NCBI RefSeq assembly: GCF_014205215.1
Contig: NZ_JACHNC010000001.1
Span: 4,407,001 to 4,471,000, forward strand
Reading direction: 5' to 3'
Origin: Actinoplanes lobatus
GTDB lineage: Bacteria > Actinomycetota > Actinomycetes > Mycobacteriales > Micromonosporaceae
DNA length: 64,000 nt
In this document: positions 6,700 through 40,036 of the stretch, one piece after another
Layout: each line of letters opens with the position of its first letter
Numbering within the stretch: the stretch's first letter is position 1
Translations under genes and position numbers: made by a program
Notes under the pieces: model-generated
The model's database searches: none
What the model was told of the DNA's origin: nothing
The model's input: the letters and a program-made list of their open reading frames with translations, nothing else

Positions 6700-6980
6700 T
6701 CCGGCCGGTCGCCCTCGTCTCCGGTCGGCCCAGCCTCTTCGGCCGTCCCTGTCTCCGGTCGGCCCAGCCTCTTCGGTCGTCCCTGTCTCCGGTCGGCCCA
6801 GCCTCTTCGGTCGTCCCTGTCTCCGGTCGGCCCAGCCTCTTCGGTCGTCCCTGTCTCCGGTCGGCCCAGCCTCTTCGGTCGTCCCTGTCTCCGGTCGGCC
6901 CAGCCTCTTCGGTCGTCCCTGTCTCCGGTCGGCCCAGCCTCTTCGGCCGTCCCTGTCTCCGGTCGGCCCACCCTCTTCGC
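6700..6980. repeat. 34-bp tandem array, eight copies
   Basis: Units beginning CCGGTCGGCCCAGCCTCTTC start at 6721, 6755, 6789, 6823, 6857, 6891, 6925 and 6959, an exact 34-bp period, with partial units on both sides. The array opens the 765-bp gap between two convergent genes and is followed (6980-7140) by shorter, irregular GTCTCCGGTTGGCG-type units. Because 34 is not a multiple of three, every frame stays open and long spurious ORFs arise. I regard the array as noncoding. Confidence 0.85.
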
Positions 6981-19962: not shown

Positions 19963-20149
19963 CCCGGTCGGCACTCACTCTGACCGGCCCGCGGCCCGGC
20001 TCGCCAGCACCCGGATTGCCCACTTACCTCCGTAGTGCCGGTCGCGGTGGGCGCGGTCTTCGAGGCCGGTGACCCTGCTGGCCATTCAAGGTAAGCGCGC
20101 TACCAGCGAATACTCGCCTAGGGTGCCGTCGGCTCCCGCCCTCTGCGGC

Positions 20150-20648
20150 CGGTCACGCTGGGTGGGTGGTCACGGTCTTGCTTCCCAGGCATCCGGGTGC
20201 CCGCTCTCAGCCGTTGCGCCGGTCACCCACCCGGTGGCTCGCCCACTCCGAAACCCGACCGGCCGGAACTCCGTGTGAGCGAGGGACTCCGTTCACCGGC
20301 TCATGTGGAAGACAGAGGTCGCCGGAACAGCACCGAAATACCACGCCCTCCACTCACTCACCGCCATGGTCACGGTGAGTGAGTCCCGGCGGGTTCCCGT
20401 GGCACGACCGGCGTCAAGCGCCACCACCCGCCTGGCGTGACTGGCGTGACGGTCGGGAGCGGCATTCCGGGTGGCTGGCAAGCACCACCGCGACCACCCA
20501 CCCCGGCGCGACCGGCGGCACATGCGGGGGTATCCGGCCGATCTCAGCCCGGCGGGCGCGGCACAGGCCGGAGCGGGCAGCAAGCTCGCGTGGAGCCGGC
20601 GGGACGGGGTCACCCGTACCGGATTAGGAGCGGAAGCGAACGTGGACC
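20150..20648 (-). repeat. Short relative of the 36-kb composite repeat element, inverted
   Basis: This fills most of the 782-bp gap 19919-20700. Read on the minus strand it has the same order of modules as 36114-37090: a terminal 130-bp module (20525-20648), one 70-bp unit (about 20437-20520), the roughly 160-bp central module (20270-20430) and one oppositely oriented 70-bp unit (about 20150-20235). The central hairpin here has a 12-bp stem (ACTCACTCACCG, 20352-20363, with 20373-20384) and a 9-nt loop. Short ORFs run through it but are explained by the repeat. The remaining 20649-20700 is unremarkable. Confidence 0.8.
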
Positions 20649-22988: not shown

Positions 22989-23145
22989 GCGGTGACCTCC
23001 AGAAAGCCTGGGCAGGATGTCGATGTCGGCGTGGTCGAGGGTCCACCGGTCAGCATCTCACCGGAGGCGACCGCCGTGTCCAGCGCGCGGGCCGCCTAGC
23101 GGGAGCGGCGGCACCTGAGGGGGTGGTGGTTCGGCCGGCCTGCCC

Positions 23146-23275
23146 GGCCACCGATCTGAGCCCGGTGGGCGCGGCACAGGCCGGAGCGGGCAGCGAGATC
23201 GCGCCGGACGGACGGGACGGCCGGGGCTTTTGTGGACTGTCCACCGCGTACCGGGGAAAGGGGGTGGGCGGAAGG
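23146..23275 (+). repeat. Partial copy of the 130-bp terminal repeat module
   Basis: CACCGATCTGAGCCCGGTGG and the following GGCACAGGCCGGAGCGGGCAGC match the terminal module at 20538-20648 and 37590-37735. Similarity continues weakly through GCGTACCGGGGAAAGG. It occupies most of the 308-bp gap between the aldehyde dehydrogenase start and the end of rmlD. The remainder, next to the dehydrogenase start, shows no clear signal. Confidence 0.65.
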
Positions 23276-34729: not shown

Positions 34730-36112
34730 ATGACGGCGCCGACACAGCACCATCCGGTCGATCTCGAGCCGTCCCTGATCGCTCCTGGCACGTACACGTC
34801 CCGCCGCCTGCGGGTGCGACTGGACGTGGCCGGCGTCATCTGCCTGCTGTTCTGCCTGCTCTACGGGCTGCCGGCCACGCTGATCGTGCCGGCGCTGACG
34901 TTCGCGGGCCGGCCGGCGCTGCTGCTGGCACTGGCGCTGTTCGCCTGGTGGGTCCTGGCGCGCCTGAGCCCTCAGCTGCTGATGATCGGGCCGCAGCCGT
35001 TGCGCTGGGCCTGCCTGTTCTACCTCATGTCGATCCTGGCGTCGTGCATCGCCGGGATGCTGCGCGGACTGCCCACCCTGGAGGCGAACGGGCAGACCTT
35101 CACGTTGCTGATCACGTTCCAGTTCCTCGGCCTGATCCTGATGGCGGCCGACGGGATCGCCAACTGGGCCCGGCTTCGCAAGATCATTCAGGTGTTCGTC
35201 TGGGCGGCCGCGTTCATGTCGGTGGTCGGGCTCATCCAGTCGCTGTTCGAGTACGACGTCGCCCAGCACCTCGTGGTGCCCGGCCTGGAGCTCAAGTCGG
35301 ACCTGGCCGACTTCCAGAAGCGCGGTGACGGCCTCTTCCGGGTCGCCGGCACCGCGACCCACTACATCGAGTTCAGCACGGTCCTGGCCATGGCCGTCCC
35401 CTTCGGCCTGCACTTCGCCCGCTTCGCGAAGAGCCGGAACAGCCGGATCATGTTCGGCGTGCTGACGCTGGTCATCGCGGTGGCGATCCCGATCGCGATC
35501 TCGCGGACCGGCGTGGTGGCCCTCGGCGTCGCCTTCCTGGTCATGTTCATCACCGCGTGGAACTGGCGGGTCCGCTACAACCTGGCGGTGATCAGCATCG
35601 CCGTGATGGGCGCGATGAGCGTGGTCCGCCCGGGCCTGCTCGGCACCCTCAAGTCGATGTTCCTGTGGGTGGAGGCGGACCCCAGCATCGAGGGGCGCAC
35701 CAAGGACTACGAGTACATCGCCCACTGGTTCTCGCAGCGCCCCTGGCTGGGCCGCGGCCCCGGCACGCTGATCCCGGACCTCTACATCATCCTCGACAAC
35801 CAGTGGCTCTACACCCTGGTTACCTGCGGGATCATCGGCGTCCTGGCGCTGGCCACGCTGCACCTCACCTGCATCGTGCTGGCGTCGGTCGCGCTGCGCC
35901 GCTCCCAGTCGGAGGAGGACCGGCATCTCTGCGCGGCCCTGATCGCCACACAGGTGCTGGCCATCGTGGTCGGCGGCACCTTCGACTCGCTCGGGTTCAC
36001 CACCTTCGCCTTCACCCTGGCCGCGCTGTCCGGCCTGTGCGGGGCGGTGTGGCGCTTCACCCATCCGCGGCGCACCGTCCGGACCTCCACGGTGCGCCGC
36101 ATCCTGGGCTGA
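34730..36112 (+). CDS. O-antigen ligase/polymerase-like membrane protein (Wzy/WaaL superfamily)
   Basis: This 460-residue polytopic protein has about 10-12 predicted helices. A large extracytoplasmic loop (about 290-350) contains WVEADPSIEGRTKDYEYI and WLGRGPGTLIPDLY, and ISRTGVVALGVAFLVM (about 252-267) carries the family's SRT/G motif. These are hallmarks of the Wzy_C family that polymerises or ligates lipid-linked repeats. It directly follows the Wzz-like gene. Its stop codon is 2 bp before the left terminal repeat of the composite element at 36114. Confidence 0.87.
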   Translation: MTAPTQHHPVDLEPSLIAPGTYTSRRLRVRLDVAGVICLLFCLLYGLPATLIVPALTFAGRPALLLALALFAWWVLARLSPQLLMIGPQPLRWACLFYLMSILASCIAGMLRGLPTLEANGQTFTLLITFQFLGLILMAADGIANWARLRKIIQVFVWAAAFMSVVGLIQSLFEYDVAQHLVVPGLELKSDLADFQKRGDGLFRVAGTATHYIEFSTVLAMAVPFGLHFARFAKSRNSRIMFGVLTLVIAVAIPIAISRTGVVALGVAFLVMFITAWNWRVRYNLAVISIAVMGAMSVVRPGLLGTLKSMFLWVEADPSIEGRTKDYEYIAHWFSQRPWLGRGPGTLIPDLYIILDNQWLYTLVTCGIIGVLALATLHLTCIVLASVALRRSQSEEDRHLCAALIATQVLAIVVGGTFDSLGFTTFAFTLAALSGLCGAVWRFTHPRRTVRTSTVRRILG

Positions 36113-36289
36113 GGGCTAGAGACCTTTCGTGGTCGAGGTCCGTCTGTCGCTTCCGCCCCTTCCCGGTACGCGTGACGCCGTCCCCGTCTCATCAGGGCCG
36201 TTCCGTCCGGTCGGCGCGTGCTTGCTGCCCGCTCGGGCCTGTGCCGCGCCCGCCGGGCGTAGATCGGTCGGACACTCCCGCATGTGCCG

Positions 36290-36600
36290 CGCGGTTGCGC
36301 TGGGTGGGTGGTTGGGGTGGTGGTTGCCTGGCATGCGGGGTGCTGCTTGCGGCCGTGACGCCGGTTGCGCTGGGTGGGTGGTTGGGGTGGTGGTTGCCTG
36401 GCATGCGGGGTGCTGCTTGCGGCCGTGACGCCGGTTGCGCTGGGTGGGTGGTTGGGGTGGTGGTTGCCTGGCATGCGGGGTGTTGCTTGCGGCCGTGACG
36501 CCGGTCGCGCCGGGTGGGTGGTTGGGGTGGTGATCGCCAGGCATCCGGGGTGCTGCTCCCGGCCGTCACGCCGGTCACGCCGGGTGGGTGGTGGCGCTTG
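36290..36600 (-). repeat. 70-bp tandem array, left arm of the composite element
   Basis: Units marked by TGGGTGGGTGGTTGGGGTGG begin at 36301, 36371 and 36441, with diverged copies at 36511 and 36581: an exact 70-bp period and about 4.5 copies. Read on the minus strand the unit is homologous to the 71-bp units at 37020-37516 (shared GGCCGT(G/A)ACGCCGGT and GCCTGG/CCCAGAC-like parts). Adjacent copies are too similar, and lack variable spacers, to be CRISPR. Confidence 0.9.
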
Positions 36601-36633
36601 ACGTCGGTCGCGCCACGGGAATCCGTCGGGAGT

Positions 36634-36660
36634 CACTCACCGTGACCATGGCGGTGAGTG
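36634..36660. repeat. Conserved central hairpin of the composite element
   Basis: CACTCACCG (36634-36642) and CGGTGAGTG (36652-36660) flank TGACCATGG. The relative at 20352-20384 keeps the 9-nt loop (in complement) and extends the stem to 12 bp with a paired extra GAGT/ACTC. Pairing kept in two diverged copies suggests the fold matters. Confidence 0.7.
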
Positions 36661-37019
36661 CGTGGAGGCGCGTGGTACATCGGTGCTGTTCTGCCGATCT
36701 CAATCTTCCACAAGGGCCGGTGGGCGGGGTCCCTCGCTTACACGGAGTGTCGGCCAGGCGGGTTTGTGGGGTGAGCGGGCGCGAAAGTCGTCGGGTGGGT
36801 GGCCGTCACGGCGATGGGCGGGGTGGGCGCACGCGCTGGTGATGTCGTGGTCGCCTGCTTGTCCTATAGCGGTGGTGGCCGCGCACGCGGCGGCTTGCGT
36901 GTGCGGCCACGACCGCTTCGACAGCCCGACCGTGTGCACCTACCCGCGCTGAACCCGCCCGCCGGGAGGACGGCCGTGCGCGGCTGCCAGGCCCGGCAGG
37001 ACCGTGGATGACGAGTACC

Positions 37020-37516
37020 GTGACCGGCGTTACGGCCGAGGGCAGGCACTCCGGGTGCCTGGGAAGCAACACCGCGACCACCCGCCCACGGTGACCGGCG
37101 TTACGGCCGAGGGCAGGCACTCCGGGTGTCTGGCGAGCAACACCGTGACCACCCGCCCACGGTGACCGGCGTTACGGCCGAGAGCGGGCACTCCGGGTGT
37201 CTGGGAAGCAACACCGTGACCACCCGCCCACGGTGACCGGCGTTACGGCCGAGGGCAGGCACTCCGGGTGTCTGGGAAGCAACACCGTGACCACCCGCCC
37301 ACGGTGACCGGCGTTACGGCCGAGGGCAGGCACTCCGGGTGTCTGGCGAGCAACACCGCGACCACCCGCCCACGGTGACCGGCGTTACGGCCGAGAGCGG
37401 GCACTCCGGGTGTCTGGGAAGCAGCACCGCGACCACCCGCCCACGGTGACCGGCGTTACGGCCGAGAGCAGGCACTCCGGGTGTCTGGAAAGCAACACCG
37501 CGACCAACCGTCCAGC
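37020..37516 (+). repeat. 71-bp tandem array, seven copies
   Basis: Units beginning GTGACCGGCGTTACGGCCGA start at 37020, 37091, 37162, 37233, 37304, 37375 and 37446, an exact 71-bp period. Copies differ mainly at GGGCAGG/AGAGCGG and GGGAAGC/GGCGAGC positions, so exchange between units seems recent. This is the right arm of the composite element, before the right terminal repeat. Confidence 0.92.
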
Positions 37517-37740
37517 GTGCCCCGGTCCGCCGAGGGCGAGAGTCGACGCCCTGGCCGTGACCGGCGGCAAAGAGGGGGCCGGGCCGGCCACCGATCTACG
37601 CCCGGCGGGCGCGGCAAAGGCCGGAGCGGGCAGCAAGCGAGCGCCGACCGGACGGGGCGGCCCTGATGAGGCGGGGCGAGGTCACGCGTACCGGAAAGGA
37701 GGAGCCGGAAGCGGAACGCGGACCTCGACCACGAAGGTCT

Positions 37741-38868
37741 CTAGCCGCACTCGGTGATCTTCTTGGTCTCCTTCTTGATCCGCCCTGTCGCCCAGTCGTA
37801 GGTGACGACCGCGTTGCCGTCCCACTCGCCGATCTCGCTGCAGGTGACCTCGACCGGGCCGTACGCCGCCGTGCCCTGCACGATCTTGTTGCCGGTCACC
37901 GAGGAGAACTGTCCGCCGCCCAGGCGTAGTGCGTACCCACCGCCGGCCAGCAGGTTGTCGTCGACCGCCCCGCCGTTGTTGCCCTGGCCGTCCGGGATGA
38001 AGATCGGAGCGGTGGGGCAGTCGTCCTGCCGCTGGTCGATGGTGTTGTGCCGCAGCGTGATGTGCGGGCCGCCGTAGCCCTGCACGCCGTCGCCGTGCGG
38101 GTCCTCGCTGGCGCAGAGGCCGGGCGGGACGGCGAGCTGGACGAACGAGTCCTCGATGACGATCGGCCCGGCGCCGGTGTTGCTGCTGCCGCCGGCCCGG
38201 AAGCCCTCGATCCGGTTGATGATCTTGCAGCGCCGGCAGGTGAAGTCGGCGGTGCCGATGGCGAACTCGCCGTTGGTGGTGAACTCCTGGCCGGGCGGGT
38301 TGACCGCCTCCAGCCCGATCATGGTGAGCGGCCCGTAGATGCGGTCGCCGACGAAGTTGTTGATCTGGCCGTAGACCCGGCTGTTGCGGATGGTGACGTT
38401 GTCGGCCTGCACCGTGATGCTGCCCTTGACCAGGTAGTTCTCGATCGTGGTGCCGGCCTTGGTGATCTTCAGGTCGCCCTCGACCGTCTTCTTCGGCGCC
38501 CATCCGGCGGGCACCCCGGCGCACGACGCCGTCGGGTAGGCCGGCAGCGCGCAGCTCCCGCCGCCCGCCGGGCGGGCCGTCGACCGGCTGGGCGAGGCGG
38601 ATGCCTTGGCGCTGACCGAGGCGGAGGCGGTCGTGGCCGGGCCGAGCGACAGGCTGGGCCGTGCCGACACCGGCACGGACGGGGCGTCGGCGGAGGCGGC
38701 CGGCGGCCCGGCGGGCCCGCCCGCGCTGGTGGTGGCCGGCTCCGCGCCTGGCACGAACCGGTAGACGGCGGCGCCCGCGGTGGCGGCGACGACGGCGGCG
38801 GCCGTGGCGGCGATGGCGATCCAGGGCCGGCGCCGGCGGTGCCCGCCGGGCGTCTGCTGCTGATTCAC
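37741..38868 (-). CDS. Membrane-anchored right-handed beta-helix protein
   Basis: This protein has about 375 residues. A basic start (GGHRRRRPW) precedes a single anchor helix IAIAATAAAVVAATAGAAVY (about 14-33). A Ser/Ala/Pro linker of about 70 residues leads to a pectate-lyase-like parallel beta-helix, seen as successive short strands: GTTIENYLVKG, NVTIRNSRVYGQINN, PIVIEDSFVQL, HITLRHNTIDQ. It lies outside the membrane and may bind, trim or hold the polysaccharide. No catalytic residues can be named. GGAGGG lies 10 nt before the GTG at 38868; longer in-frame starts exist. The stop codon lies within the right end of the composite element. Confidence 0.75.
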   Translation of the reverse strand: MNQQQTPGGHRRRRPWIAIAATAAAVVAATAGAAVYRFVPGAEPATTSAGGPAGPPAASADAPSVPVSARPSLSLGPATTASASVSAKASASPSRSTARPAGGGSCALPAYPTASCAGVPAGWAPKKTVEGDLKITKAGTTIENYLVKGSITVQADNVTIRNSRVYGQINNFVGDRIYGPLTMIGLEAVNPPGQEFTTNGEFAIGTADFTCRRCKIINRIEGFRAGGSSNTGAGPIVIEDSFVQLAVPPGLCASEDPHGDGVQGYGGPHITLRHNTIDQRQDDCPTAPIFIPDGQGNNGGAVDDNLLAGGGYALRLGGGQFSSVTGNKIVQGTAAYGPVEVTCSEIGEWDGNAVVTYDWATGRIKKETKKITECG

Positions 38869-39175
38869 GACGGTTCTTCCCTCCGATGTCACTTCGGATG
38901 GTCCATTGACCGGCTCGTTCACGGTGACAGACAAGAGTAAATGCAATGCGGCGCGCCGGGGGCCGTCCATTCGGGCCCGACAGGCTCTATTTCCCGGCCG
39001 TTCAGCGGGTTCCGTCGAGTGTGGACCGGATGAAATGTTCTCGCGCGGGTCGCCGTGCACCGTAACGGATCATGGCCGGGCCTCCGCCGGTCTGACGGGA
39101 ATCCGCCAGAGTCGATGTGGCGGCCTTTCGGCGCGGTACGGTCGGCGCGATCGCGAACTTGAAGGGGATTCCGTT
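38869..39175. other. 307-bp divergent spacer
   Basis: This separates the beta-helix gene (minus) from the GNAT gene (plus) and must hold both promoters. It contains GGTCCATTGACCGG near 38899, a partial dyad. The similar string GTCCATTG recurs at 38967 and upstream of the secreted-protein gene (43122, 43171), so it might be a shared site. No gene is seen. Confidence 0.4.
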
Positions 39176-40036
39176 TTGGGTGTTCGGGTAGTGCCCATCA
39201 CCGCCGACGACGTCCGGATGGTCGCGGAGTTCCTCCACGCCAATCTCAACAGCCGCGTCCCGGTCGACGACTGGGTCCGTGCCGTCGACGTGCCGTGGAA
39301 GGTGGACGCTCCGGACCACGGGCGGATGCTCCTCGACGAGGACGGGGCGGTGGCCGGCGCGCTGCTCGCCTTCTACTCGGAGCGGGAGATCGGCGGGCGC
39401 ACCGAGCGGTTCTGCAACCTCGGGGCCTGGTGCGTGCTGCCGGAGCACCGGTTCCACAGCCTGAAACTGCTCAAGGCGCTGCTCGCCCGGCCCGGCTACC
39501 ACTTCACCGACCTCTCGCCGAGCGGCAACGTCGTGCCGATCAACACCCGGCTCGGCTTCACCTCCCTGGACACCGCGACCGCCCTGGTGCCCAACCTGCC
39601 GTGGCCGGCCGTTCCGGGCCGCCGCCGGGTCACCGCCGACCCGGACCGCATCCGCCGCGCGCTCACCGGTCCCACCCTGGCCCGCTACCTGGACCACGCC
39701 GACGCGCCCGCCGCCCGGCACGTGCTGCTGACCGACGGCGACGAGTCGTGCCTGGTGATCTTCCGGCGGGACCGTCGCAAGGGCCTGCCGTTGTTCGCCT
39801 CGATCCTGTGGGTCAGCGATCCCGCCCTGTTCCGCCGGATGCGCCGCCGGCTGTTCAGCCACCTGCTGCTGCGCCACGGCGTGCCGCTCACCCTCGCCGA
39901 GCTGCGGGTGACCGGCCCGCGCCCCGCGCTGTCGCGGCTGCTGGGCTCGCCCCGGCACAAGATGTTCCGCAGCGCGAGCCTGGGCCCGGACGACATCGAC
40001 TACCTCTACAGCGAGCTGGTCAGCCTCAACTGGTGA
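39176..40036 (+). CDS. GNAT-like acyltransferase of the polysaccharide cluster
   Basis: This protein of about 286 residues has a GNAT fold in the first half: VPITADDVRMVAEFLHAN, a core strand GALLAFYSEREIGGRTERFCNLGAWCVLPEHRFHS split over about 62-96, and YHFTDLSPSGNVVPINTRLGF. Residues past about 150 are a less conserved second half. It may acylate a sugar or carry the acyl group activated by the AMP-ligase/carrier cassette that follows 37 bp downstream. A TTG at 39176 with GAAGGGGA 7-8 nt upstream is the best start. Other in-frame starts from 38906 lack such a signal. Confidence 0.68.
   Translation: MGVRVVPITADDVRMVAEFLHANLNSRVPVDDWVRAVDVPWKVDAPDHGRMLLDEDGAVAGALLAFYSEREIGGRTERFCNLGAWCVLPEHRFHSLKLLKALLARPGYHFTDLSPSGNVVPINTRLGFTSLDTATALVPNLPWPAVPGRRRVTADPDRIRRALTGPTLARYLDHADAPAARHVLLTDGDESCLVIFRRDRRKGLPLFASILWVSDPALFRRMRRRLFSHLLLRHGVPLTLAELRVTGPRPALSRLLGSPRHKMFRSASLGPDDIDYLYSELVSLNW

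Follow-up and report, generated by a model that had tools for sequence, protein, structure and literature searches.

The 64-kb stretch of Actinoplanes lobatus DNA analysed here (the window) contains a near-palindromic noncoding element at positions 36116-37744, and both of its neighbouring genes point toward it. The locus is composed as follows.

34730..36112, plus strand: left neighbour, an O-antigen ligase-like gene (Wzy_C); its TGA stop at 36110-36112 lies 3 bp before the left CTAG
36116..36119, no strand: left CTAG, the putative duplicated target, which abuts the element exactly
36120-37740: element proper, between the flanking CTAGs
36120..36268, plus strand: left terminal unit; the blocks GTGGTCGAGGTCCG, GGTACGCGTGAC, CCGTCCGGTCGGCGCG and GCGCCCGCCGGGCGTAGATCGGT are conserved in a 55-end alignment
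36284..36592, plus strand: left tandem array, period 70, 4.4 copies, 94% matches (Tandem Repeats Finder)
36605..36693, plus strand: central module C1, aligned in 33 copies
36632-36646: dyad GTCAC-TCACC-GTGAC in C1; the conservation of C1 is highest around this dyad (GTCAC-N5-GTGAC)
36699..36932, no strand: central modules C2 and C3, the palindrome centre, partly reverse complements of each other
37020..37514, minus strand: right tandem array, period 71, 7.0 copies, 94% matches (Tandem Repeats Finder)
37591..37740, minus strand: right terminal unit, the second inverted repeat
37741..37744, no strand: right CTAG, with the TAG stop of the right-hand gene (minus strand) inside
37741..39060, minus strand: right neighbour, with its native C-terminus and itself without a Pfam match

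A preliminary description of this DNA had pointed out a near-palindrome with inverted ends and homologous arrays facing each other, which is in good agreement with our alignments. The outer 155 bp of both ends are 87% identical in inverted orientation, and the whole element aligns with its own reverse complement over 529 bp (71% identity, E 2.5e-72). The 70-bp and 71-bp units are likewise homologous when inverted (73% over 114 bp). The position precisely between two gene ends is also borne out, as is the lack of a gene of its own: open reading frames are present, but none of them is called as a gene by codon usage. Two of the 12 CTAG occurrences in the window abut the element exactly. For the right-hand gene, the C-terminus of the protein falls within one residue of the same position in all 34 aligned homologues (the best 34 of 91), and thus the gene is not truncated. 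The closest homologue of this gene is from A. campanulatus (95%), and several homologues are named right-handed beta-helix proteins.

Elsewhere in the window, two more decayed copies of the same kind were found at 20323-20648 (a C1 module and an end) and at 23142-23254 (a single end), with a CTAG nearby at 20118 and 23096, respectively. The window also carries other repetitive DNA. A 93/186-bp tandem palindromic repeat (GATCTTGGACG...CGTCCAAGATC) occupies 2372-2883, and since a look-alike of it adjoins an end of the palindrome family in locus L291, it perhaps represents a second dispersed intergenic family. A 34-bp unit is repeated at 6706-6979 (8.1 copies, 97% matches), neighboured by 16-, 20- and 8-bp repeats between 6668 and 7422.

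The genome of A. lobatus, a soil bacterium, comprises 10.4 Mb on two contigs and contains many relatives of the window element. BLASTN with the entire element gave 204 matches, which fall into about 40 loci among the matches listed. A 32-base core pattern of the window end, allowing up to three mismatches, matched 128 times, while the reversed pattern gave no match. As this genome-wide occurrence of the end core shows, the element is not a local duplication, the alternative that the preliminary description had set up as its own refutation; other two-ended elements exist in the genome, and a related species is without the element at this locus. An HMM of the ends, applied to the regions fetched for the core-pattern matches listed, recovered at least 131 ends, i.e., 40 facing pairs and 51 single ends. 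These counts are lower bounds, and at least three of the single ends have a partner that the end model missed.

The members of this dispersed family vary strongly in their interior, and their sizes range from 93 bp to about 2.1 kb. Arrays with a period of 68-71 are found in 23 of the 40 pairs, 13 of which carry them in both arms, and C1 can be aligned in 33 copies. The smallest copy (5554687-5554779, 93 bp) is 71% self-complementary and bounded by CTAG on both sides; these CTAGs are the stops of the two convergent genes called to its left and right. A palindrome copy of about 143 bp lies at 3.459 Mb, and remnants of some 19-33 bp appear, by eye, directly after stop codons. In the 55-end alignment the end blocks are largely more than 90% conserved, compared to a mean column identity of 76%. 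The average identity of the ends is 77%, a divergence of about 23% that marks most copies as old. The left end of the window element is an exception: it shares 97% identity with an end at 8.553 Mb and 96% with another at 1.168 Mb, a closeness that points to copying or conversion in recent times. Both ends of one element are no closer to each other (78%) than ends of different elements (77%), and co-evolution of the arms was not seen in the 10 elements compared. A possible polarity of the two ends was noticed by eye.

The elements are clearly biased toward convergent genes. At the 40 pairs, the flanking genes are convergent in 26 cases, tandem in 14 and never divergent, whereas the 408 other gene pairs on the same segments comprise 74 convergent, 254 tandem and 80 divergent ones (26/40 vs 74/408, Fisher p 1e-9). 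Considering all ends, 106 of 131 (39 of 51 for single ends) have a nearest called gene that is transcribed toward them, and the remaining 25 do not; at 88 of 131 the gene is transcribed toward the end and has its stop within 60 nt. Genes were called with a crude, simple codon-usage script, and hence some of the "tandem" and "away" calls are probably wrong. The stop codons themselves are kept in register with the ends. There are 40 full-length ends, of which 34 face a gene; in 17 of these 34 the stop lies in one and the same 4-bp register (12 TAG, 5 TGA; binomial p 2e-15 against an assumed uniform null of 4%).

The tetramer CTAG is depleted tenfold in this genome (0.25 per kb vs 2.6 expected; the fetched segments hold 192 occurrences over 763 kb). 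If element ends are counted as well, 46 of the 192 serve as the stop of a called gene. Of 62 ends examined, 33 were readable at the relevant position, and 10 of them have CTAG before the conserved AGANC. Matches to the terminal 19-mer start with CTAG in 16 of 31 cases, with a search pattern that itself starts with CTAG. A check for target-site duplication, as advised in the preliminary description, gave a divided result. CTAG on both sides was found in two elements only, the window element and the 93-bp copy; among the 13 pairs tabulated with both ends, the window element is the only case, and the other 12 are without it. In addition, TGA accounts for five of the 17 in-register stops and would not result directly from a duplication of CTAG. 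Without any element, a shared CTAG forms the overlapping stops of 4 out of 74 convergent pairs.

The family is present in three Actinoplanes species: A. lobatus, A. flavus and a third one (genome G015). All nine exact core matches in named genomes belong to A. flavus NEAU-H7, the A. lobatus record itself being perhaps excluded from that search. When the left end was used as a query, 11 of 60 genomes (own included) gave any match, but strong ones occurred only in A. lobatus and A. flavus, and G015 holds a diverged form. The core pattern matched 86 times in A. flavus and not at all in G015. An exact two-block end pattern was found in 4 of 354 genomes of the bacterial family, namely the three species and a genome of another genus, whose single match looks unrelated; this pattern is insensitive, since A. 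flavus gives 1 match with it and 86 with the core pattern. Most of the nine loci fetched from G015 share the first blocks and differ in the arms, some of them with long self-inverted repeats. The family has thus diversified by species. An origin from phages or plasmids was rejected, as viral contigs contain no exact core match and plasmids no BLASTN match.

The preliminary description had advised a search for empty sites in related strains, and comparison with A. flavus revealed sites without an element. At the window locus, the alignments of both flanks are separated by 173 bp in A. flavus and by 3,178 bp in A. lobatus. In A. flavus, the orthologue of the gene at 38906-40036 comes shortly after the ligase gene, with neither the element nor the beta-helix gene present; thus both may have been gained or both lost. 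For the 9.52-Mb site, the corresponding spacing is 11 bp in A. flavus vs 1.4 kb in A. lobatus. At 5.18 Mb, A. flavus retains, by eye, a 30-bp remnant. For the 93-bp copy the left neighbour differs in A. flavus, so this comparison is uninformative.

The sites at 8.55 and 4.30 Mb have their gene ends in the same position in both species, and A. flavus has IS5 sequence directly behind the stop instead of the element. The transposase at 4.30 Mb matches NF033580 with 246 bits (L262, 151-1077). The two flanks of the 8.55-Mb site lie on different A. flavus contigs (ends of L277 and L279), which bear the start and the end of an IS5 transposase; a single IS copy joining them is therefore presumed. The right-hand stop at this site is TGA in A. 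lobatus; in A. flavus, assuming that the IS duplicated 2 bp (TA), it would have been TAG prior to the insertion.

From 25 locus pairs of both species, one of them without an alignment, many keep one or both ends and differ strongly in the interior, e.g., 650 vs about 360 bp, or 2.1 kb vs one end. Such length differences would fit the role of a recombination target, another suggestion of the preliminary description. The best match of an A. flavus end at a syntenic locus is the syntenic A. lobatus end in only 8 of 22 cases by bit score (10 by percent identity), where a few of the 22 may not be the orthologous end. The other 14 match a paralogue best by bit score. This suggests that sites are re-used or converted.

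Taking these observations together, we consider it rather probable that the family consists of gene-free, non-autonomous mobile elements with a foldback-like architecture, which insert at the CTAG of tail-to-tail genes and are moved in trans by an IS5-like DDE transposase. An element would insert at CTAG, a rare tetramer that can serve as the overlapping stop of two tail-to-tail genes, and the four bases would be duplicated on insertion, such that each of the convergent genes keeps its own TAG stop. Because the duplication would leave each gene this stop, an insertion at a shared CTAG should be nearly harmless, and such copies would survive. The transposase, of the kind that targets CTAG or YTAR, would act on the MITE-like ends; the arms may have grown by tandem arrays, and recombination between array units would let the interior expand and shrink. 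The 70-bp units might be seen as protein-binding repeats, although this is only an analogy. Of this account, the sequences show the dispersed family, the register of the stops, the bias toward convergent genes, the polymorphism between species, the varying size of the interior and the lack of a called gene; transposition itself, a CTAG duplication as the rule, the enzyme and the reason why the arms grew are inferred.

Mobilisation in trans, already suggested in the preliminary description, gains indirect support from the dispersed copies, the empty orthologous site, the stop and CTAG register and the missing gene, but a mobilising enzyme was not found. A genome scan with the terminal 19-mer, in search of an autonomous copy, returned the known copies and eight new loci, where no transposase-bearing element was recognised; by eye, and with genes unannotated there, these loci are mini copies, short remnants and possible chance matches. 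The terminal sequence of the family is, by eye, unlike the IS5 ends of A. flavus. A gene for an XerC/D-like tyrosine recombinase lies near a single end at 7.701 Mb (L108, 5929-6876), in a locus that aligns with L167 of A. flavus. We do not regard this as evidence for a tyrosine recombinase as the mobiliser, as it is one such neighbour among many flanking genes.

A rival reading, to which we give a minor but appreciable chance, does without current transposition: gene conversion and homologous recombination alone would have spread an old family of intergenic repeats and kept its copies alike, and selection would halt the conversion tracts at the stop codon. Orthologous elements that differ mainly inside and the short remnants seen by eye after stop codons suit this reading, and so does the better match of 14 of 22 syntenic ends to a paralogue, which fits a re-use of sites equally well. 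It leaves unexplained how the first copies arrived at about 90 loci and why the stops keep one register, and the absence of elements from the window and 9.52-Mb loci of A. flavus speaks against it.

Somewhat less likely still is a function of the terminal units as 3'-end modules, which would follow stops, be C-rich in the direction of transcription and thus could load Rho, two facing units acting as a bidirectional terminator or insulator. The called genes that read toward most ends, the single ones included, are consistent with such a role, and the strong conservation of the end blocks relative to the average column also fits. Along the first 150 nt, the GC skew averages -0.13, -0.20 and -0.10, and it is negative in the bin of 50-100 nt for 98% of 64 half-elements. 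However, such units are lacking behind orthologous stops: the end model found nothing at the 57 congener loci with orthologues of the right-hand genes of 4.30 and 5.18 Mb. The exact two-block pattern, insensitive as it is, has no match in 64 of the 66 other Actinoplanes genomes, and neither the ends nor C1 have a conserved structure. G-quadruplex pause arrays were rejected as well (sense G4 density of 0.02 per kb vs 0.10 in the background).

That the element is a structured noncoding RNA, as also raised in the preliminary description, or is otherwise RNA-based seems highly improbable. The strand does fold strongly, as any palindrome would, which reflects the palindrome rather than visibly selected base pairs. 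When 55 ends were folded as a consensus, the covariation term came to -0.28 kcal/mol with no covariation seen, and the similarity of ends within and between elements given above offers no sign of paired evolution either. The proposed central hairpin is predicted by folding but not conserved: across 33 copies of C1, 79.9% of the positions in question are paired vs 80.3% after shuffling, with no two-sided change. No Rfam match reached the gathering score.

We give just as little credit to the idea that the elements are REPs or REPINs mobilised by a RAYT (Y1) transposase. The elements resemble GTAG and CGTC REPs and REPINs as described in PMC3733652, which are palindromes present in high copy behind genes, frequently between convergent ones, with GTAG-REP termini that often give TAG stops; moreover, six Y1_Tnp matches exist in the genome. 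The units found here are much longer, however, with ends of about 155 bp instead of the 20-40 bp of a tagged REP palindrome, and no linked RAYT was found: the fetched Y1_Tnp loci are without convincing ends (one match, E 0.45). This candidate was therefore rejected.

MITEs are below about 600 bp in size. Like them, the elements have terminal inverted repeats, many dispersed copies and no gene of their own, but the window element measures 1.6 kb. MITEPsy1, an IS5-like element of 100 nt in Pseudomonas syringae, is described as inserting after CTAG or YTAA, duplicating its target and moving in vivo (PMC3189936). Our family shares with it, and with IS5-like MITEs, the gene-free build, the inverted terminal repeats and CTAG as the putative target, and the 93-bp copy is of similar size; unlike MITEPsy1, the present family has copies of up to about 2.1 kb that contain tandem arrays, and no IS with matching ends was found. 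IS5 of E. coli is reported to duplicate a YTAR target, mostly CTAG (PMC5493358). CTAG as the putative target is common to the IS5 family and the elements, and IS5 sequence directly follows two of the same stops in A. flavus; the elements differ from it in their ends and have no called gene that could encode an IS5 transposase.

The architecture resembles that of foldback transposons of animals and plants; foldback elements with tandem-repeat arms are known from eukaryotes. Long inverted arms that hold tandem subrepeats in variable copy number are found here as in Foldback and Galileo, in whose arms transposase binding sites were found in tandem repeats, according to PMC3688188. Galileo, however, is eukaryotic and has a P-superfamily transposase, whereas the family here is bacterial and linked to CTAG at stop codons. 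The preliminary description had not recognised the type of element, and our literature search, with subscription journals mostly outside its scope, likewise gave no bacterial family of such architecture. As a tentative extension, which we put forward as possible rather than probable, the family might be a bacterial foldback-type transposon whose long inverted arms consist of tandem repeats that bind the transposase. It would be directed by CTAG to shared stops of convergent genes and mobilised in trans, and recurrent re-insertion at the same junctions would reshape them between sister species.

If this is true, a high-copy bacterial counterpart of foldback elements would provide a genetically simple system for asking what the arms do. 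The insertion sites suggest a safe-haven rule, by which insertion costs little at a rare tetramer that doubles as the stop of two genes. Such elements would also account for the abundant large gene-free intergenic DNA in these Actinoplanes.
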